A DNA stretch of 64,000 nt from Pyrenophora tritici-repentis (lineage: Eukaryota > Ascomycota > Dothideomycetes > Pleosporales > Pleosporaceae), in the NCBI RefSeq assembly GCF_003171515.1, contig NC_089395.1:1736001-1800000 (forward strand). Direction: 5' to 3'. Below are positions 3,401-37,677 of this stretch, piece by piece (positions within the stretch are counted from its first letter, which is position 1; the number at the start of each line of letters is the position of its first letter). Made by a program: the position numbers and the translations under genes. Under the pieces are notes generated by a model that had not been told where the DNA came from, searched no databases, and was given only the letters and a program-made list of their open reading frames with translations.

Positions 3401-6400
3401 ATGACCCTGGATCCAGGAACACTCGATACGCTTGTTCACGAGCTAGAAAGCTATGTAATTAAGATCAAGAGCATAAAGATGCGGGTCCAAAGCTATTCAC
3501 AACCAATGGTCTTAACTGGCCAGCAGAGCAAGAAACCACCCGACACGATCCCACCCGACACGATCCCACCCGATGTACGCTCGAAGCTCGAAAAAACAGT
3601 GCGCTCTATCATCATAGGAGCAGGAACGATCCTTGCAACCTTACAGTTGCCCCTGCGACAGACGCGTGAAAACAAGCCGGAACCGACGAGCAAAAGGAAC
3701 CTCAGATTGAACAAAGACACAGATCGAGATAAGGAGGCGCATGTTGTGCAGAAACGGGCCGTATATTTGGCCAGGAACTCGAGAGGCAAACGAAGCCGCA
3801 GATCAGGCAAGAGCAGACCGCCTGTAGTGCAGGAACCTACAAGCCAAGACGAAGAACAGCAGCCTTTACGAAGAAGTCTCCAAGATGACGCGGCGGGTGA
3901 AGGAGCTACCTCTAATAACCAAGAGGACGATAACACCGAGAGGGAAACGGATGATATTACTGAAGGAAGGTCTTCCGATGACAACAACGTGCTAAATCAC
4001 GCGACACGTCCGTCGGCACTAGAACGAGCCGGCGTTGACTCAACCCTTCCGCAATTTTCCGTCCCTACTCATCAGTGCGATTTAACAGACCTGGGATTAT
4101 ACACGGTGCCTACTTTGGAAAAATTTACCTCCTTACCCGACGTGCACAGGACCGGCATGTGCCATCTTTCTATACAGGATTTCTCCATGCAGAACCTCGA
4201 TTTCGATGCTGGTATTGTGCAAGATGCTCGTCGCACAACAACACAGCTCAAGTACAATACTGCCTGCCTGAAGCGGCCTGGTGTCATGGCAATATCTTCG
4301 AGTTACTCTGGGCGCCCGCTCACACCTTTCACCACGTTCACCGATGCACCCAGAGGACATTATTCCGATGAGCAGTTGGAGGAGATTTTCGAATCCTTCT
4401 GCAGAGACACTACATCTGGCAAGCCACAATGGTATCTGATCGGCTCAAGCAAAGAGGTGCTTGGAGAGCAATGCCGCTATTCTGACCTGCTCACGGCTGG
4501 TCCATATTTGCAGCAGGCTTTGACACAAACCATAGATGGTGTCAACACAAGCTACATTTATGCTAGCTACGCTACTGGCCGTACTGCTACCGCGATGCAT
4601 TATGAAGACTGCGCATGGTTTTCTGTCAACCTCATGCTATGTGGTGCTCCAAAAATATGGCTTAGCATCGAGCCTACGTCCAATGAGAAGTTCGAGGCCG
4701 GCCTAGGAGCTTTGTTCCCTGGACAGCTGACTACGTGTTCACAACGCATCCGTCACTTATCGGTACTCGTTGCACCGAGCGTCCTTAAAAGTCTGGGGGT
4801 GAAATACCATATCAAGGCCTGTTATCCTGGGGAGCTGATCTTCACGACCCCTGCAGCCTATCACCAGATTATCAACATGGGCGCAAACCTGGCTGAAGCT
4901 GTCAATTTCATGGACCGAAACATTTCCCCCTATCCGCAAAACTATAATTTTTGTACTAGCAAAATTTGCGGCTTCACGGATTCTCCTGGCCCACACCACT
5001 TCCGAGCCAGCAAGCGTCCTTGGCTCGGGGAACAGACTGAGACACCTCCAGGCAAGAGGCGTCGTGACGGTCCTGCTAGGCTTGAATTGGTAGAGTTGCA
5101 GCGGTATAGTCTGGGTGTTGGGGAATCACTTTTCCATAATCTTGCACGCAAAACTCCCGCTTCACTCATTGTGTCAATTCTCAGTAAGCAAACGCTGGCA
5201 CGACTCTCTCGACTAATACATGCACAGAGGACGGAGCACTACAGCGAGTTCGCATCTGCTACACCCCCCTTGGACAATCACGATCAAGACATCTTATATC
5301 ATACTGCGGCGTATCATAGTGCTGCAAAAGTGTCCTGTCAGCAAGCTGATCTCCCTCTACTGCGTGTACGCGCCAACACATTTGCCTACGTCTCCTGTCT
5401 CGAAAGCTTGAAAGGCGGAGCTGCCAAATTCTCTTCCGAGATAATAACCCGCATCCTACGTCTACAGAACACGCCAAACACGCCTGATGCACGACGGACG
5501 CTTGTCCATAACTTCTCCACTAGCAAGAAATGGCGCTCTCTTTGTGAGAGCCATGGACCTGGACTTCTTGCGCTCCTACCTCTTCAGTCTGAAGCCCCCT
5601 ATTTCCTGTGCACTAGCAGCCTATTGAAGATGAATGATGCTGACATCAAGCACTTCAATGACCTGTTAGAACAATGCATGAAAGAAGGTGAATTCAAGGA
5701 AATACTGCAAAGTCTGTGCGCCATCGCAAATGGACTCGTCAAGCGTGTGCTCTCTGACACTTCATTTCAATACGGCTTCGAGGATCCTAACAATCTGCCA
5801 GCCGACTTCGAACATCCCCACTTCGAATATCGCTCCGAGTGGTTCAACAGCACTACGCCTGTGCTTTCTGAGAACGATGATTTGGACTTGAAGAACACGC
5901 TATCGCTATTGCGCCCACAAGCGTACCTCGCTCAGAGCCAACCTGCTAGCACATTGTCTCGTAAATTGCATCGATTGAAGGCTACCGTGGACGTGACCTT
6001 GATGCCCAATGCCTCTGCATCTTGCATTGATGCTGCAGCTTCGCGACACTGTCCATGCATGCCTCCACGGCTAGGCTTCTATCGGTTATCCGCGACATCT
6101 TCGGATAAACTACCCATTGTTGAGTCTCGTGTGCCATACGGCCCGGAAGACTATATCGGCGAGCTGACTGGCCTATTACACTCTGCGGATCACAGTGATT
6201 GCAGCGGCACGTTTTGCGCGCTTTATTGGCCTACCGGTAACCAGCCAATTTGCCACCTGCATTGGGACGACCAGGGAAACTGGGTCCGCCATATCCCTCA
6301 TTCTTGCGACCCGTCTGCCAAGTTCATGCCACAGATCCTTGGTTGCAGGCTCCGAGTCATGTTACAGGCTAAAGCTTCCATCGTCAGAGGCACGGCAATC

Positions 6401-28788: not shown

Positions 28789-29149
28789 AGTTGGCGAGGA
28801 AATGCGGCACGAAGATGCCTCGGAGCGAGAGAGAAGAGAGGTGTGGGCAGCTAGTGAGCAAGACTGTTGGGAAAGCAATGAGCTTATAATTTATAGCTAG
28901 ATACTCACCTTCGGTGAAGACAGGGTACGATTTTTAAAACGCCGAGCCGGCTATGCCGTTACCCTGTATCAGTGGTGCCCGTGATAGTGTGCACGAGCCG
29001 ATGCTGACAGGGGTGGTGTAGTAGGCTCGAGCACGTCTTCTCTGCGGCGCAGTCACTCAGGTATACTCGAGATAAACAGCAGGGGCCATAGTAGCTGCCT
29101 GGTCGTGACGGCAGAAATATAGCAGCATCATTGGCGTTGATGCATTCTA
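28789..29149. other. Intergenic, Myb promoter
   Basis: About 360 bp between the Myb start and the 3' end of the captain relic. No coding signal was seen. Confidence 0.4.
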
Positions 29150-30122
29150 CTAGAGAGAGTTACAGGTGTAGTAATGAGACACTCCGTGGATATCAAACGC
29201 ATGCCTCTTAAAATGCATTATGTCATCTAGCATATCAGAGCAACTAGGATGGCGGCATAGAAACTCTGACTGAAGCTCAGGGAGTCGGAAATAAGTCTCT
29301 ACATGCTTCTTCAGGACATCCTTTCGTGGGATATGTCGAATCATCCGTTCGTACGAGAACTCTTCATTCCCTATGCAGATAAGGCACACCGGATAAGAGA
29401 GCACAGTTGGGTACAGCTGCCCGAAGCGTACCTCCAAGACTTCTTTAACAGGCTATAGTGCGTTAACCTCTTCTTTCACAATCTCGCAGACCTAGTTTAG
29501 TAGGCGCTTCTCAAAAGCATCGATGCACTTCTTTCGCTTATTCGAGAAAGATGAGCCATCAGCTTCATATAAGATCAGTCCCACCTTCTTTCGCTTAAAT
29601 GCCTTTAGCTGCTGATTTTCTTGTTTATAACATAATCTAGCCAAGGTTCGCACGAATCGTACCCGGGCTTTATCATCCTAAGCCGGCTTAAAGAGCATGC
29701 CTGCGATAGTGGCTCGCTCCTAAAGTTCAAACTCAACGGCTGGGAGCGTCAGAACTTCAGTTGCTGCCTTCCCACTAAGTTGCCTTGCTATCTCGATTAT
29801 ATTGATTGATTTATAGGATTTGCGGATAGCAGAATTTAATCGTTCTCTATACAATTTCTAGTTTATACTGGCGATCTTTCGCTTCGTCTCCCTGTATTTC
29901 TTGTAAATATCTGTTCCTTGTCCCTTCACGAGTGGTTAAAAGCCTTGGTCATAAAGCTGTCCTTTGTAGGTTTCTCGCTCCTTCTGAAGGACTGCAAGTG
30001 CAGAGTCGTTTCGCAATGCCTCCTGTTGTGCGTCATCTAACTCCGTGAGTGCACGTTGATCCCGTGTTAAACCTATACGTGCAACAGATTTGATAAGAAG
30101 GTCTTCTGGCGGGCTTCTAAAT
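29150..30122 (-). pseudogene. DUF3435 captain relic, 3' part, RIP-damaged
   Basis: A single minus-strand frame of about 320 codons is readable through six in-frame stops, all TAA or TAG and none TGA. It matches the C-terminal half of the intact captain next door: PPEDLLIKSVARIGLTRDQR aligns with PSDKILMKVLGSMSLTRDPL, a charged helical middle follows, and the end has the same paired zinc-binding segments (CLICIG, CRHPSC with HFKRHAFDIH). Loss of CAA/CAG codons to stops by C-to-T change explains all six, the mark of RIP. The last 95 codons remain open. The relic is cut at 30123 by the TIR element and resumes at 34901. Confidence 0.8.
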
Positions 30123-30124
30123 TA

Positions 30125-30166
30125 ACGTCACCCACTGCGAAGCGAGACACACAGGGACCCGAGACA
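30125..30166 (+). repeat. Left terminal inverted repeat
   Basis: Starts ACGTCACCCACTGCGA directly after TA. It pairs with 34857-34898 with one mismatch in the first 29 bases and again at GAGACA near the inner end. Confidence 0.8.
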
Positions 30167-30826
30167 CTTTTGCACTCAGAACTCCAAATATCGTTCTATC
30201 GCAAGAGCCTCGTCCTAACAACGTAGGAACCAGTTCTATAGCATCTTATCATTCTTATACTAGCTCGAGGGCGAGATTCTTACGACATGGTTAACGCTGT
30301 CGATCATTTTGTTGGCCCTCTTCAAACCCCGCCTTTCTTCCTACCCCTGTATCTTGGGTCCTGAGGGTACCAATCTATATTTCGGAGGACTGAAAAGAGA
30401 GTCGTGATTATAGGGATTTTACATTCTGAGCCTCGTCGCGATCGGCAGCCTTACAGCCTTATTCCGAGAGTTTCTCCGTGCCTTCAAGTTGAGGAACAGA
30501 TTAGGCGTATTTTATAATACGAATGCGTAGTTATGTAATCTTTGATGCGCCACAGACTACACCTAATTAAGGTGAGACTCTAAAAATAATTGTGGCTCTT
30601 TGTTCCCAGTGCCCATCTCCCTTGGCAACGTGTCCGAAGCCTTCTCGGCCCCGCGCCGCCTGCAGTGCAGCAGCGCTTAGATATGTCAGCCCTCTCAGCC
30701 TTACGCAGACGACGATGGATCGCAGGACTGCTCTCAGCCTGACAGCGGCCTCGCTGCTGGGCCAGCCTACAATCACGCGAACCGCGATCGATCGATTTAC
30801 CTCATCTCCGTCGCAGACCTCACATC

Positions 30827-33800
30827 ATGGACGGCCTTTCGGGCGCAGCAAGCGTCATCGCGGTAATTGACATATCCGCCAAGATCGCCTCGCTCTGCTA
30901 CCAGTACTCCGTGGCTGTCAAGGACGCGAAGGATGATATCGAGCGTGTGCGGAGAAAGGTCAGCGACATCGCCCACATCCTGGAGAAGATTAAGCAGCTT
31001 CTCAACAGCGAAGACAAGACGCGGCTCCCTACCACTCAGGGCCTGTTTAGCTCGCTCGAACAGTGCCTAGAGGAGCTAAAGAAACTAGAAGCAAAATTAG
31101 ATCCGGGAAAAACTCGCAAGACTATGAGCCGGTTCGGCTTCCGTGCGCTCAAATGGCCGTTCACGAGTAAGCAGGTGGACAAGATTGTTTTAAACTTGGA
31201 AGGATACGAGCAGACATTCAGCTTGGCATTGCAGGTCGATCAGACGTAAGCTTCTGTACCCAGATCTGTCGTGCGCAGACCAGCTTCTCACTAACTGTAC
31301 AGAGTCGTTGTGTTCAACATAGACCAGAAGCTAGACCTAGCCAGACTGCCTATCGCGATAGGCGCCTCCTTCAATTCCTACAACGAAGAGCACAACGCAC
31401 GATGCCTACCGAACACCCGCACCGAGCTGCTAGACGAGATCACAACATGGGCGAACAACAAGGATGGCAAGTCCATATTCTGGTTGAGCGGCATGGCAGG
31501 CACGGGAAAGTCTACGATTGCGCGGACAATTGCAGAGTCATTTGCCGATCACGGTCAGCTAGGAGCAAGCTTCTTCTTCAAGAGAGGTGAAGGCGAGCGT
31601 GGCAAGGCCTCACGGTTCTTTACTACCATCGCCACTGATCTAGTCGCCTGTGAGCCAGGCATGCTGCAAGGTATTAGGAAGACGCTCGACGAGGACCCGG
31701 CTATCTCAAACAAGGCTCTAAAAGACCAGTTCGAGAAGCTGATCCTGCAGCCACTTCTAGGGATAAAGCAGACTCGTCCGCGGGTCTCGGCGCGAGTTGT
31801 CGTGATCGACGCGCTAGACGAATGTGAACGCGAAGCAGATATTCGGGCGATCCTCCAGCTTCTCGCTCGGACAAAAGACCTTCGCCCAGTGCCGCTACGG
31901 ATCGTGGTCACTAGTCGACCAGAGCTCCACATCCGCCTGGGCTTTAAGGAGATGGCGAACGGCACGTACCAAGATCTAGTCCTCCACGAGGTACCAAGGA
32001 GCACGATTGAACATGACATCCGTCTTTTCCTAGAGCATGAGCTTGGTATAATACGAAAAGAGCGCATGCTAGCCTCAGACTGGCCAGCGCAACAACAGAT
32101 CCTCGCGCTGGTTGAGCTGGCTGTGCCGCTGTTCATCTACGCTGCCACCGTATGTCGGTATGTTGGCAGCAAAGGAAGCAGTCCTACGGCTTTTCTGAAC
32201 AAGGTCCTGCAGTATCAGAAGGCAACCTTTTCGCAGCTAGATCGGACGTACCTCCCTGTGCTCGATCAGCTGGTTAGTGAGCAGGAGGAAGACGAGAGGG
32301 AGACGTGGCTTCAGGCTTTCCGAGAAGTTGTCGGCAGTATTGTTGTGCTTGAAAGCCCACTCCCTGCTGTCTCGCTTGCCCGGCTGCTTCAAGTTCCACA
32401 AGAAGAGATTCAGTGTCGACTTGACTCTTTGCACTCCGTTCTTAGTGTTCCTAACAACAAGGACGCGCCTGTTCGCCTCTTGCACTTGTCCTTTCGCGAG
32501 TTCCTTGTCAACCCCCAGAAACAAGGAAAGAGCCTGTTTTGGGTGGATGAGAAAAGCACACACCAGAAGCTTGCATCTCGCTGCCTTGAGCTTATGTCTG
32601 GATCTAGCGGTCTTCGTCAGGACATGTGCGGCCTCTCAGGCCCTGGAGTGCTGAGGGACGAGATAGATGAGCAGACAGTTGCTGGCAGTCTGTCACCTGA
32701 TCTACAATATGCGTGTCGCTACTGGGTTGATCATCTCAAGCAGGGCGGGCAAGGTATGGCGGACGGAGACGCAACGCACCTCTTTCTGCAGAAGCACTTT
32801 CTCCATTGGCTTGAGGCCATGAGCCTAATAAGAGAATCGAGCAGATGCGTTGACTTGCTCAACAGCCTTCAGGCACTTGCCAGCGTAAGATCTTTGCAAG
32901 ACACCCCTATACTACCCTGCTAACGTGACACGTAGCCATCTGCAAAGCTAGTTTCAGCCTTTCTTCATGACGCCAAGCGGTCCGTGCTGCGGTTCTATTC
33001 AGTACTTACAGATGCGCCGCTGCAGCTCTATTGCTCCGCGCTAGTGTTCGCACCAGAGAGGAGCCTGATACGACAAACATTTGTAGACCAAGTGCCAGAA
33101 AAGATCAAGATGCTGTCTATGAAAGAAGCAGACTGGGACGCATGTCGCAGCACGCTGGAGGGCCATTCTGACTATGTCAGGGCGGTGGCCTTCTCGCCAG
33201 ACGGGCAGCTGGTCGCGTCGGCATCCAACGACAAGACAGTACGGCTGTGGGAGGCGGCGACAGGGACGTGTCGCAGCACGCTGGAGGGCCATTTCTCCTA
33301 TATCAGGGCGGTGGCCTTCTCGCCAGACGGGCAGCTGGTCGCGTCAGCATCCAACGACAAGACAGTACGGCTGTGGGATGCGGCGACAGGGACGTGTCGC
33401 AGCACGCTGGAGGGCCATTCTGACTATGTCACGGCGGTGGCCTTCTCGCCAGACGGGCAGCTGGTTGCGTCAGCATCCGACGACAAGACAGTACAGCTGT
33501 GGGAGGCGGCGACAGGGACGTGTCGCAGCACGCTAGAGGGCCATTCCTCCAGAGTCACGGCGGTGGCCTTCTCGCCAGACGGGCAGCTGGTCGCGTCAGC
33601 ATCCGACGACAAGACAGTACGGCTGTGGGATGCGGCGACAGGGACGTGTCGCAGCACGCTGGAGGGCCATTCTGACTATGTCACGGCGGTGGCCTTCTCG
33701 CCAGACGGGCAGCTGGTCGCGTCAGCATCCAACGACAAGACAGTACAGCTGTGGGAGGCGGCGACAGGGACGTGTCGCAGCACGCTGGAGGGCCATTCCT

Positions 33801-34327
33801 CCTATATCAGGGCGGTGGCCTTCTCGCCAGACGGGCAGCTGGTCGCGTCGGCATCCTGGGACAGCACAGTACGGCTGTGGGAGGCGGCGACAGGGACGTG
33901 TCGCAGCACGCTGGAGGGCCATTCTGACTATGTCAGGGCGGTGGCCTTCTCGCCAGACGGGCAGCTGGTCGCGTCGGCATCCGACGACAAGACAGTACGG
34001 CTGTGGGAGGCGGCGACAGGGACGTGTCGCAGCACGCTGGAAAGCCCTTCTGTTCACACCGCTTATGTCAATTTCTCGCCAGATGGCCAGGTACTTCGCA
34101 CTGACAGAGGCGATATTTCTTTGCCTCAAACTCCTGTTGTGACATCGCTCGCAAGGCCGCAGCTGCAGTCCTTCTACGTTCAAGTGCAGGATCAGTGGAT
34201 ATTTCGCAACCAGCAACGTTTTCTATGGCTTCCGCCAGAGTATCGACCAGGTTCGACCGCAGTATTCGAGGACATGGCTTGTCTAGGACTTACATCTGGT
34301 CGTGTAGTTCTGCTCAAGATTTTCTAG
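30827..34327 (+). CDS. NLR (STAND) protein: HeLo-like, NACHT, WD40 repeats
   Basis: Exons 30827-31245, 31303-32884 and 32936-34327 join in phase to 1,130 residues; donors are GTAAGC and GTAAGA and branch sites CTAAC. Residues 1-135 match the fungal STAND N-terminal domain of the HeLo-like type (start [20 protein letters not shown]). The NACHT domain has Walker [10 protein letters not shown] at 203-211 and Walker [12 protein letters not shown] near 304-314, then winged-helix and linker regions to about 735. Seven 42-residue WD40 repeats follow, with a degenerate eighth and a 100-residue tail. Such proteins act in fungal non-self recognition; the N-domain triggers cell death when the sensor binds its ligand. 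No stop or frameshift is seen, so the gene looks functional. It lies inside the TIR element. Confidence 0.92.
33143..34024 (+). repeat. WD40 minisatellite, seven 126-bp units
   Basis: Units start at 33143, 33269, 33395, 33521, 33647, 33773 and 33899; a decayed eighth begins at 34025. They differ at only a few codons: after GH (S/F, D/S, Y/R), then V/I, then R/T before AVAFSPDGQ, the N/D/W before DK or DS, R/Q before LW, and E/D after LW. Concentrated amino-acid variation in otherwise identical units is the pattern of high-internal-conservation repeats in heterokaryon-incompatibility NLRs. Confidence 0.95.
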
Positions 34328-34856
34328 CTTCGTGCATTGATAAGCCGATTTAGTACAAGCATAATATAGACGCTTACCGAATCTAGCTGATATGAAGCAC
34401 AGCCACATGTATTGACGGTGACCCACTGCCAAGAGTATTATGTCATCTTCAATACTGGCACTATGTCCGTGCGGGGTCCGATTTCTCTTGGTCGCTAAAG
34501 CTCTAGGTACTGACTAGGGTGGCGACATCGCATAATCCTGCTGTTTGCGGCAGCTACACGGGCAATAAGAGCCGCTGGACGTTATACAAGATTGAGTACG
34601 TAGTGTTGAGCAGATCCATCAGCTTAAAATCTGCGGTTAAGAACAGAGTGATGTTGTAGACTAAGGTGTTCATATAACAGCCAAATAGGATGCTCCTCTT
34701 GACGAGCCGCAAAGAACACCGCAGGACTGGTAATTTTTAAATTTGACACGCGGGGCTTATTCCTAAGAAACTCTTTGATATTATTGCTGCTAGCAAATTC
34801 AAAAAGTAGAGGTTGTTACGTTACAAATATTGTTGAAGTTCAAAGTACCTGCAGTT
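34328..34856. other. 3' region of the NLR inside the TIR element
   Basis: About 530 bp between the NLR stop and the right TIR. No transposase or second gene frame is present. Confidence 0.45.
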
Positions 34857-34898
34857 TGTCTCGCTTCGTTGTGTGTCTCGCGTCGCAGTGGGTGACGT
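34857..34898 (-). repeat. Right terminal inverted repeat
   Basis: Read on the minus strand it begins ACGTCACCCACTGCGA and is followed outside by TA at 34899. It is the partner of 30125-30166. Confidence 0.8.
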
Positions 34899-34900
34899 TA

Positions 34901-35050
34901 GATAGATTGGAAGTCGTGGACAATGTGCGTTGGCGTGTAGTACTTCTCTTATGTACTCCCAAGATGATCTATAGTCTAGTTCCGTTCTACTAGGTCTAGA
35001 GCGCCTAGTAGATTCTATAAGCTTGCGCGTCTCTTTTAGCTTACTAAGTT
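34901..35050 (-). pseudogene. DUF3435 captain relic, 5' part
   Basis: On the minus strand this piece reads GALDLVERN-stop-TIDHL, then EKYYTPTHIVHDFQSI, up to the TIR element. EKYYTP...DFQ matches the recombinase box II region of captains (the intact copy has FQFYINPNVKCDVQ at the same spacing). The stops are TAG and TAA, again fitting C-to-T loss of Gln codons. It continues at 30122 on the other side of the insertion. Upstream of about 35050 the relic fades and is not readable. Confidence 0.6.
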
Positions 35051-35232: not shown

Positions 35233-37677
35233 CTAGAAAGATGTAACCTTCGGAAAACGAAGCGTAATCTTGTGAATTCTTAGGGCGTGCGCCTTGAAAT
35301 GCGATACACCATCTAAGACCACCTTGTTATCTCGGCATCCTGGGTGGGGGCACGGGATCCTGCTATCCGGCTCCAGGGGATAAAGATGGATCTTTTCAAT
35401 ATGATCCATCATCTTCGATGGCCGACTCCAACAGAACGTTCGCTGCGAGGCGGGAAGGCTCCTATCGCCTATGCAGAACAGACACTGGCGTCTATCACAC
35501 TCCAAAGGTGTTGGCAAGGTCACATTCTCGTCCTCGCTCGTGGTCGGAGGCAGCGCCTTAGAAGCTGTGACACGTCGCCGTGCCTCACGACGACAGCACA
35601 ACTCCTTCATGTATCTGACTAATTGTATCCGCCGATCCAGCGCATCAGGTTCATCGAGATCAACAGGTGATCTGGAGAGCAAGGCTACAACGCTAGCCCG
35701 CTCTTTCAGCGCGTAAACCATGGTAGGGTTGTTCTCATCTCCGCCGTCGAGAAGTAGGTCGTCCTCTTCCTCAAGCTCCCTTGTATCATTCTCTGCAAAG
35801 TACCGCTGTCTAATTCTCCTCATGAGGCGATCGCGCAACAGCTTCTTTTTCTGACGCAAGTCTGCCTCCGCGGCCTTTCTTCGATCGATGAGTTCAACTT
35901 TTCTCTTTGCACCATTACTAAGCTCAGGATGCTGTTGAATGTCTTTTATCTCCTTCGTTAAAGCATCTCGTCTCAAGCGTAACCTTACAACAGTAGGGTC
36001 TTGTTGAATTGAGCGGGCATCGTCTGGTTCAAGTCGGGTTGGTGCCAGCGGGTCGCGCGTTAAGGACATACTGCCGAGCACCTTCATAAGAATCTTGTCG
36101 GAGGGTTCTTCCAGGAAAGCCGCCTGAACATCACACTTGACGTTCGGGTTGATATAGAACTGGAATATTTCTGAGTAGCTGTGCCCCATCACTTGATCGC
36201 GCTCGCCCACTGTGCCCGAGCCTATAAACATGTTAGCCTCAAGCTAAGGGTGTGCAAAGAGAGGCACGGAAACACGTACTGTCAACACCATTGCCTACTC
36301 CGCGCCTGATACATGATTGCGTCACAGACTGCTCCATACCAACGTCTCGTCCCAGCCGCTTCAGATACCGGGCCGCAGTTTGCGCTCGTAAAGGTGTAGC
36401 TGGGCTTTCTGACAACGCCTGACCCCTAGCCCGAGCAGGTTCTCGAAATACAGGCGTCTGCAGCATGTCCTTCTTCCACCGAAATATTCTACAGCTTTTT
36501 CGTGCAGGGATGTGTGCGCGCAATATCGCTTCTGGGCTGCTAATAGAAGAGGCAGCGAAAGCGTTGTGATGGAGGCCAAGAGCTACCATGTGCGCAATGG
36601 GGCAAAGCAAAGGGTTCTTGTTCTGGTACATTTTGAATGTCTTTCTAGAGATGCATTAGCTCGTGAAGAAAGGACATTTAGTTTGTACGAACGGTTGCGG
36701 CTTCCTGTCCTCTCCCTTGGTATGTATAAGCGTAACCCACATGGCCAGCCTCACACGACCTTGCACTCTGACTGCCACGAGAGTTACGTGCTCGTAGAGT
36801 ATTGACTTCAGTTGCTCAGATTCGGGAACACTTTCACTAGACCCGGACTCTGTCGCGCTCGTGTCGTCTTCATCCTCTTCGCTAGAGTCATAGAAACGAA
36901 TCGCGGGGTCTCTGACCTTATCGGTGGTTCTTTCGGCCGGATCCTTCATGCTCGCATCCACGAGTGAGACAGGTCGAGCCCCTGTGTACGCGGCAAACAA
37001 GAGTAGCAGAGCTATCAGTATCCGATGTTCTTCATCCGGCAACACTGTGGTGTCGAGCACCATATTGTGATGTAGCAGCACAAGCAGGCCGTCGACGGAC
37101 AACACGGGTCTCTTTGGTGGTGATATATCAAGCTGATACTTTCTTGTAATCTTCGTGATATGCTGCCACGTATCATTAGCCGGTTGCCTGAGCTATTGGG
37201 ATATTGACCTACTTTGTTCACGTCATCTATCAGGTCTTGATGTAAACGCTTGCGTGCGTGCCGCTTGTAGAGCATCTTCGCTTGTCTCCAGTACTGATGC
37301 AGACTGGACTTCTTTTGTACGCCGGGATACTTGTCTAGTATCCAGTTGCAGAATGCTTTGTAGTCGGCTGCAGTTGCAGCCTGGATGAACTCGACTGGAT
37401 CTTGAGCATATTTATCAGGAAATCTCTCATCGCAATAGCTTTCATGAAGTTAGCCGGTGGTGTTGTCGTTGTTAAACAGGCACGGAAGGAAAAGACAGTC
37501 TTAGTCTTACAGTTGCCATCTTTTCCAAACACCACTTAAATTAACATTCGTGGTTTTTGAATAGTCTAATTCAGTAGGACCTTGCTCTGCTAGCTCGTTC
37601 GATAAGGCTCCGTAGTAGCCAGATGGACGGCTAACAGGCTTACGTCGCTTCGTACGGCTTATTGTTTGGATTGACAT
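35233..37677 (-). CDS. DUF3435 tyrosine recombinase, Starship captain type
   Basis: Exons 37677-37511, 37438-37213, 37162-36689, 36640-36280 and 36221-35233 join in phase to 738 residues, with branch sites of CTAAT/CTAAC type. Family landmarks appear in order: VWKRWQLYCDERFPDKYA, ADYKAFCNWILDKYP, the first catalytic-Arg box YTGARP near residue 194, a HTKGED segment, then ERDQVMGHSYSEIFQFY with the Arg/His/Tyr of box II near 417, 423 and 432. A long charged coiled region and a Cys/His-rich C-terminus (CLFCIG, CPHPGC with HFKAHALRIH) follow. A TAA that would break the unspliced frame at 36656 lies inside intron 3, so the gene appears intact. Captains mobilise Starship elements and are read inward from the 5' end, which predicts an element to the left. 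Confidence 0.85.

Follow-up and report, generated by a model that had tools for sequence, protein, structure and literature searches.

A complete NLR gene between the ends of a putative pogo/Fot1-type transposon in Pyrenophora tritici-repentis

Features of the locus

The window analyzed here is a stretch of 64,000 nucleotides from Pyrenophora tritici-repentis (RefSeq assembly GCF_003171515.1, contig NC_089395.1, positions 1,736,001 to 1,800,000 of the forward strand). At window positions 30125..34898 (+ strand) it holds a 4774-bp element with terminal inverted repeats (TIRs) of a type designated here subfamily A (TIR-A), a duplicated TA target and paralogous empty sites in the same genome, and within the element lies a gene for a NOD-like receptor (NLR).

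The gene model, derived from the sequence, has three exons, GT-AG introns and 1130 codons with no internal stops. Exon 1 (30827..31245, +) encodes a HeLo-like N-terminal domain, exon 2 (31303..32884, +) a NACHT-type NTPase (NPHP3_N, residues 184-345), and exon 3 (32936..34327, +) WD40 repeats and the stop codon. Domains were called by Pfam, and "HeLo-like" is our reading of the PigL_N/SesA match together with a weak match to MLKL_N. Seven near-identical WD40 repeats of 126 bp (33140..34021, +), the putative sensor, are followed by an eighth, degenerate unit. This intact HeLo-like/NACHT/WD40 gene is the only gene recognized in the element, and neither a transposase-like nor a recombinase frame was recognized among the interior frames of at least 80 amino acids, which were read by eye. 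In both respects the locus is as described in the original prediction, which had been made from the letters alone and had named a complete NLR as the sole cargo of a non-autonomous element.

The left TIR occupies 30125..30166 (+) and is of a type shared with four other places in the genome (C5, C6:1661786, C7 and C8; C numbers are contigs). The right TIR occupies 34857..34898 (-) and contains, as read in the sequence, two copies of a motif of about a dozen bases at a distance of 17 bp. The near-identity predicted for the ends holds for 28 of the 29 bases first named, and the arms extend beyond these, with 39 of 44 bases pairing between 30123-30166 and 34857-34900. TA is seen at both edges, as had been claimed (left copy 30123..30124, right copy 34899..34900, both unstranded). 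An inverted pair with at least 34 of 44 bases matching at 4-6 kb spacing is unique to this element in the window; the ends are therefore not due to chance, and a chance inverted repeat was ruled out on this basis. A scan of the window found no second TIR beside either end. Inward from the tips are two transposon-specific terminal regions, one of about 510 bp on the left (30125..30633, +) and one of about 504 bp on the right (34395..34898, +), which are 73-75% and 72-74% identical, respectively, to the corresponding ends of the two sister elements described below that carry an antiporter and a HET-domain gene.

The variability of the WD40 repeats was measured as entropy over 49 FSPDG-anchored units from six NLR copies of this genome, with one unit containing a stop dropped and the last degenerate units kept. 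The five residues of highest entropy are 12, 30, 11, 14 and 32. All five fall within the set of positions (10, 11, 12, 14, 30, 32 and 39) at which HNWD repeats of Podospora anserina were classified (PMC12222747; published systems are compared here from the accessible text of the papers). Residue pairs under selection in the Podospora repeats flank conserved residues (PMC1805685), and the variable pairs 12/14 and 30/32 do likewise here, the register having been matched by those conserved residues. The gene thus has HNWD-like features, namely a NACHT-type NTPase and near-identical WD40 repeats with hypervariable residues at corresponding positions. Judged by its domains, it most likely works like HNWD, with the WD40 part sensing a partner, the NACHT part oligomerizing and the HeLo-like domain (in the C3 copy, the HET domain) triggering cell death.

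Insertion site

Window positions 30000-35000 were searched against the whole genome (40.9 Mb, 41 contigs). Two paralogous empty sites were found, C6:1977688-1977911 (locus L043) and C7:15630-15854 (locus L044), at which the two flanks of the element are adjacent and share two bases. Read letter by letter, the shared bases are a single TA, and both sites fall within open frames of DUF3435-like genes. In the window, one part of a degraded DUF3435-type gene occupies 29127..30124 (-) and is 79% and 76% identical to the uninterrupted paralogs in L043 and L044; the same gene continues beyond the element at 34899..35029 (-), with 84-86% identity to both. The name of the interrupted gene comes from its similarity to a Pfam-named neighboring frame and from the reading of frames. 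A separate DUF3435-domain frame (PF11917, E 1e-27) lies just to the right of the element at 35233-36231 (-).

Since the empty sites join the flank ending at 30124 to the flank starting at 34899 at one TA, the predicted boundaries 30125 and 34898 are exact, and the element entered a DUF3435-type gene as a single unit. The element has therefore moved in the past. The paralogous sites demonstrate insertion at TA and not its date. A search for empty TA sites in related genomes had been proposed as a check; the two found are paralogous sites within the same genome. Among 12 loci compared, the window flanks match these two sites only and not the flanks of the other NLR copies.

Other NLR copies

The same search returned five further near copies of the NLR, on C1, C2, C3, C5 and (half of a copy) C8, as well as weak fragments at C7:123758 and C9:289564. 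Four of the six near copies, that of the window included, lie between paired TIRs, one (C8) has a single TIR-A end, and one (C2) has no detectable end. Homology between the window element and the C1, C2 and C5 copies starts at element base 509-542, and for C1, C2, C3 and C5 it stops at 4227-4283; these limits approximately coincide with the borders of the terminal regions. In the comparison of these loci the left terminal region had no match at C1, C2, C3 or C5. For C3, homology starts at 1223 because its N-terminal part differs: a HET domain (PF06985) replaces the HeLo-like domain, giving the order HET-NACHT-WD40.

The C1, C3 and C5 copies are contained in elements of a second TIR type, TIR-B, all with TA at both tips. 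That on C1 (C1:173636-178504, 4869 bp) is flanked by inverted repeats of 233 bp at 78% and 209 bp at 60% identity, that on C3 (C3:1415534-1421770, 6237 bp) by one of 459 bp at 69%, and that on C5 (C5:1443741-1449489, 5749 bp) by one of 528 bp at 68%. The predicted multiplication of the NLR with its element is supported to the extent that these further copies lie between related TIRs. When the flanks of the C5 TIR-B element are joined at one TA, they align across the junction at C1:8559496-8559609 (75%) and C1:3522859-3522942 (77%), at the level of alignment and not letter by letter. Both junction loci are within relatives of the family transposase described below, so this NLR element sits in a transposase gene.

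TIR-A ends were found six times in the genome at no more than three mismatches and TIR-B ends 21 times; the reversed-pattern control gave 0 for TIR-A, and the control for TIR-B also gave 0. TIR-like matches with three mismatches were also noted in locus L050. For the TIR-B end at C2:147287 (L059), no partner end was present within the 6.2 kb read. Both types begin with TAACGTC and hold two copies, spaced by 17 bp, of the motif described above for the right TIR. In cross-profile searches, the B profile matched the right end of the HET element (E 5e-7) and the A-right profile matched a B end (E 2e-4), other matches being weaker; the profile of the right terminal region likewise gave weak matches to TIR-B ends, and the A-left profile found no B end. 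Judged from these sequence matches, TIR-A and TIR-B are classed as two related subfamilies with homologous ends. Five MITE-like pairs (MITE, miniature inverted-repeat transposable element) with TIR-B-like ends, all of 146 bp, are present at C2:173238, C2:646509, C7:110313, C7:1557899 and C9:85221 and are short relatives of the same lineage.

Over residues 1-720, the NLR has relatives with 85-87% identity in Ophiobolus, Alternaria, Bipolaris and Exserohilum, versus 80% for the C1 copy of its own genome. Horizontal spread together with the element is one possible reason for such close relatives in other genera.

Sister elements and transposase

A relaxed TIR search gave 17 matches, eight of which were excluded from the set of TIR-A ends (one of these eight was paired later), and its reversed-pattern control gave six. 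The TIR-A sister elements carry different genes. The antiporter element (C5:3114738-3120670, 5.9 kb) has a gene of the Na+/H+ exchanger type next to a broken HTH_Tnp_Tc5/DDE_1 transposase. The HET element (C6:1661786-1670007, 8.2 kb) has a HET-domain gene and a nested Fot1-like element. A right half at C8:1397912 carries the partial C8 NLR, and a more diverged element (C7:2488479-2498812, 10.3 kb) has an NYN+OST-HTH (NYN-LOTUS) gene and a nested Ty3/gypsy retroelement, the latter named by eye from its frames. Over about 475-548 bp on the left and 511-514 bp on the right, the window, antiporter and HET elements align at 72-75% identity and their interiors differ; the terminal regions are therefore the transposon and the NLR is its cargo. 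The left and right terminal regions, of about 500 bp each, are unlike each other and have the same orientation in the sisters. The antiporter element lies within a tandem array of 8-bp units, and leaving out the element together with one TA restores an array in phase. The HET element also contains about 21 copies of a 68-bp tandem repeat, upstream of its HET gene (L040:5120-6000 into L041; C6:1665120-1666563).

The antiporter element is a same-TIR sister with a DDE-type transposase, for which a search had been proposed; its transposase is broken by several stops, and the pieces score below the curated cut-offs (HTH_Tnp_Tc5 20.1 bits, cut-off 22.2; DDE_1 19.6 bits, cut-off 22). A relative of this transposase at C3:1073352 (locus L060), 77% identical over 97 amino acids, passes DDE_1 at 47.6 bits, and no family TIR was found in the 6 kb read around it. 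At L060:1758-4831 (C3:1073358-1076431) this relative is followed by a 417-amino-acid frame with a protein kinase domain. The six closest transposase matches, the antiporter element's own included, are 64-100% identical in amino acids. Two of the six are no more than 3 kb from an NLR or HET match: C1:8559395 is near C1:8562508, and C1:3522758 is between C1:3520645 and C1:3525014. Relatives of 500-550 amino acids occur in other data sets as protein entries, which do not include the DNA context. An intact-looking transposase in the HET element was considered as the family's own and rejected; it belongs to the nested Fot1-like element, which has its own 30-bp TIRs, and therefore is no evidence for a family transposase.

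Of the traits of pogo/Fot1-type elements (Tc1/mariner superfamily), the TA target-site duplication, at the window element and at the tips of sisters, and the TIRs are present. The label pogo/Tc1-like given in the original prediction is supported by the TA target and by the sister's broken transposase and by no protein of the window element itself. The Pack-type trait is also present, that is, a host-type gene between TIRs with terminal regions common to elements carrying other genes. At the DNA level, no paralog of the HET cargo was found (all four candidates scored), nor one of the antiporter gene among 40 scored of 435 candidates; the C2 NLR copy, with no detectable TIR, is 84-85% identical over two segments.

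Cargo of the TIR pairs

Convergent pairs of 1-12 kb were formed from 69 TIR-type ends, giving 11 pairs; C9:82042-85370 was dropped because it ends in a nested MITE. The target set consisted of 126 loci built from 106 HET and 43 NPHP3_N matches. Placement was uniform in 40,000 random trials, with the lengths of C4 and C10 approximated and small contigs left out. Seven of the 11 pairs enclose a HET and/or NPHP3_N (NACHT) match, against 0.21 expected; no trial reached seven, and the maximum was four. Four pairs had been found through the NLR itself. Among the seven found independently of it, three enclose a HET/NACHT match against 0.14 expected (P ~2e-4, an approximate sum). The HET-containing pairs C1:1733039 and C6:1870574 are known from positions alone; for C6:1870574 the HET match is partial and covers positions 1-87 of the profile (E 1e-7). 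The four pairs with neither match are the antiporter and NYN elements, C3:503566-508014 and C9:82042-85895, the interiors of the last two being unread.

Selection and repeat-induced point mutation

The ratio of nonsynonymous to synonymous divergence (Ka/Ks) in exon 2 lies within 0.10-0.20 for each of the 15 pairs among the six NLR copies (C8 over part of the exon) and 0.12-0.20 for the window copy against its five paralogs. Presumed introns aside, no internal stops are present in the frames examined of the window, C2, C3 and C5 copies; the C1 copy has one stop in the WD40 region, and the C8 copy is truncated. As thresholds for repeat-induced point mutation (RIP), TpA/ApT above 0.89 and (CpA+TpG)/(ApC+GpT) below 1.03 are in use. 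TpA/ApT is 0.90-1.13 in the elements and 0.85 for the window, and (CpA+TpG)/(ApC+GpT) is 1.08-1.20 in the elements. The indices are thus mixed, the first hinting at some RIP and the second not.

Interpretation

We consider it probable, at roughly 90%, that the element is a non-autonomous pogo/Fot1-type DNA transposon that carries a complete NLR and was moved as a unit, and that its lineage has acquired or exchanged NLR/HET cargo. The vehicle comprises the TA target, TIRs of about 44 bp and terminal regions of about 500 bp, and the interior cassette consists of the complete NLR, about 160-195 bp of sequence before its ATG and 25-80 bp after its stop. A transposase supplied in trans and working on the TIRs, of the kind suggested by the sister element, would have inserted the unit at a TA inside the DUF3435-type gene. 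The same cassette is present in one eroded TIR-A element and in three elements of the TIR-B type, and the TIR lineage also carries other host-type genes, several of them HET. The elements may thus have picked up NLR and HET genes, transported them as whole units and passed them from one vehicle to another, with selection keeping the cargo proteins working.

Several observations weigh against this reading. Around the C2 NLR, neither the TIR-A nor the TIR-B end profiles gave a match at E 0.1. An intact transposase with ends of either type was not found in the loci read, which cover two of the six closest transposase matches (the other four being C1:8559395, C1:3522758, C2:870365 and C2:874517). 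For the C1, C3 and HET elements a genome search with the flanks returned only the flanks themselves and no empty site. Ks among the six NLR copies is 0.31-1.41 in exon 2, so the copies do not represent a recent burst of identical sequences. Of the 69 TIR-type ends, 35 lack a partner within 12 kb under the mismatch limit applied. Uniform placement ignores regions rich in transposable elements that both sets may share, so the enrichment of HET/NACHT cargo is a lead and not proof. Over element bases 1910-2860 the C8 copy, with its TIR-A end, is 90.5% identical to the TIR-B copy on C3 versus 85.2% to the TIR-A copy of the window, and 20 two-state sites place C8 with C3. Near the 3' end (3920-4258), C8 is 88% and C3 82% identical to the window copy, the C8-C3 pair being outside this comparison. 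The histories of cassette and vehicle therefore differ, which argues against one element simply copying itself.

The last conflict favors an alternative in which the NLR family spread mainly by ordinary duplication or ectopic recombination, the TIR ends being passengers that were swapped in. It is in keeping with this that cassette and vehicle relationships conflict for C8, C3 and the window copy, that the C2 copy has no ends, and that cassette borders nearly coincide across different vehicles. It is opposed by the TA that stands at each tip of the four two-ended NLR elements and the paralogous empty sites for two of them, which show insertion as units, and by the window flanks, which among the 12 loci compared resemble the empty sites alone and no flank of another NLR copy. 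On balance this alternative is unlikely. It is very unlikely that the unit moved inside a Starship whose DUF3435 captain adjoins it. DUF3435-type frames do lie on both sides, and in this species heterokaryon-incompatibility and NACHT genes are among the cargo of Starships (PMC9594970). The element itself is 4.8 kb long with TIRs and a TA duplication, and it interrupts a DUF3435-type gene; that gene is outside the element, and no captain lies inside at one end, on which grounds Starship cargo was rejected. A surrounding Starship would account for the ride alone and not for the TIR element. Two separate MITEs flanking a resident NLR by chance, named in the original prediction as the finding that would overturn it, are extremely unlikely and were rejected. 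The genome does have MITE-like pairs with related TIRs, one of about 240 bp in addition to the five of 146 bp, but the entire 4774 bp including the NLR is absent from the empty sites (unless precise deletions came later), each end has about 500 bp of its own sequence in the same orientation as in the sisters, and neither has a second TIR beside it.

With the element read as a transposon carrying an NLR, a broader proposition can be put forward tentatively, and we hold it to be possible and somewhat less than even: the pogo/Fot1-like TIR lineage may be a standing vehicle for self/non-self genes, in which NLR and HET genes travel in elements of low copy number, with N-terminal death domains and vehicles exchanged, and the elements may be maintained by balancing selection acting on the cargo and not by their copy number. 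If so, they would give rise to new, unlinked incompatibility loci that are polymorphic for presence or absence.

Comparison with known systems

The question addressed is how fungal allorecognition genes of the NLR and HET types reach new places in the genome. A 4.8-kb cut-and-paste unit with one intact NLR, together with HET-carrying sisters, offers a simple route that can be tested, since for each locus an exact empty TA is to be expected in other isolates, and presence or absence would become scorable from long-read population genomes. The birth of new incompatibility loci would then be tied to ordinary transposon biology, with no need for giant Starships. The elements suggest such a route to new places for recognition genes in this wheat-pathogen fungus.

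Gene capture is already described for P. tritici-repentis, with a histone H3-like gene in a hAT element and an open reading frame in a Tc1/Mariner element (PMC3538342). As here, those transduplicating elements have a non-transposon gene between TIRs, multiplied with the element, in one case of Tc1/Mariner type; they differ in forming larger and largely near-identical copy sets and in their other cargo (PMC3538342). The present set is of low copy number and diverged, carries full-length NLR/HET-type genes with NLR Ka/Ks well below 1, and comprises two TIR subfamilies. In Pseudocercospora and relatives, a host gene, histone H3, was likewise captured by a fungal DNA transposon (hAT), and all copies except the original were inactivated by RIP (PMC6710886). 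In contrast, four of the six NLR copies here have no internal stop in the frames examined. Starships are, like these elements, mobile carriers of heterokaryon-incompatibility/NACHT genes in this species (PMC9594970); they are very large and have a DUF3435 tyrosine recombinase, whereas the present unit is a 4.8-kb TIR/TA element with one recognized gene. The HNWD/NWD genes of Podospora anserina share the NACHT domain and the near-identical WD40 repeats, variable at corresponding residues, and the HET-NACHT-WD40 order is shared by the C3 copy; one pseudogene among them is preceded by a transposon relic, and none is described between transposon TIRs in the accessible text (PMC1805685, PMC12222747). 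The het-v region of one Podospora strain was replaced by a transposon cluster, which is not a case of cargo (PMC9262711). The main text of a survey of NLRs in Sordariales does not contain the terms "TIR", "inverted repeat" or "Starship" (PMC12258605). No report of NLR or HET genes inside small TIR transposons was recognized in the accessible literature, whose coverage leaves out most subscription papers and all bioRxiv preprints. Transduplication by DNA transposons is thus already known, and what appears to be new here is allorecognition-type cargo in elements of the pogo/Fot1 type.

Spacing of elements on C6

Three elements on C6 start at 1661786, 1766123 and 1870574 and have HET, NLR and HET cargo, respectively. 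They are spaced 104.3 and 104.5 kb apart, and this near-equal spacing is probably due to chance.

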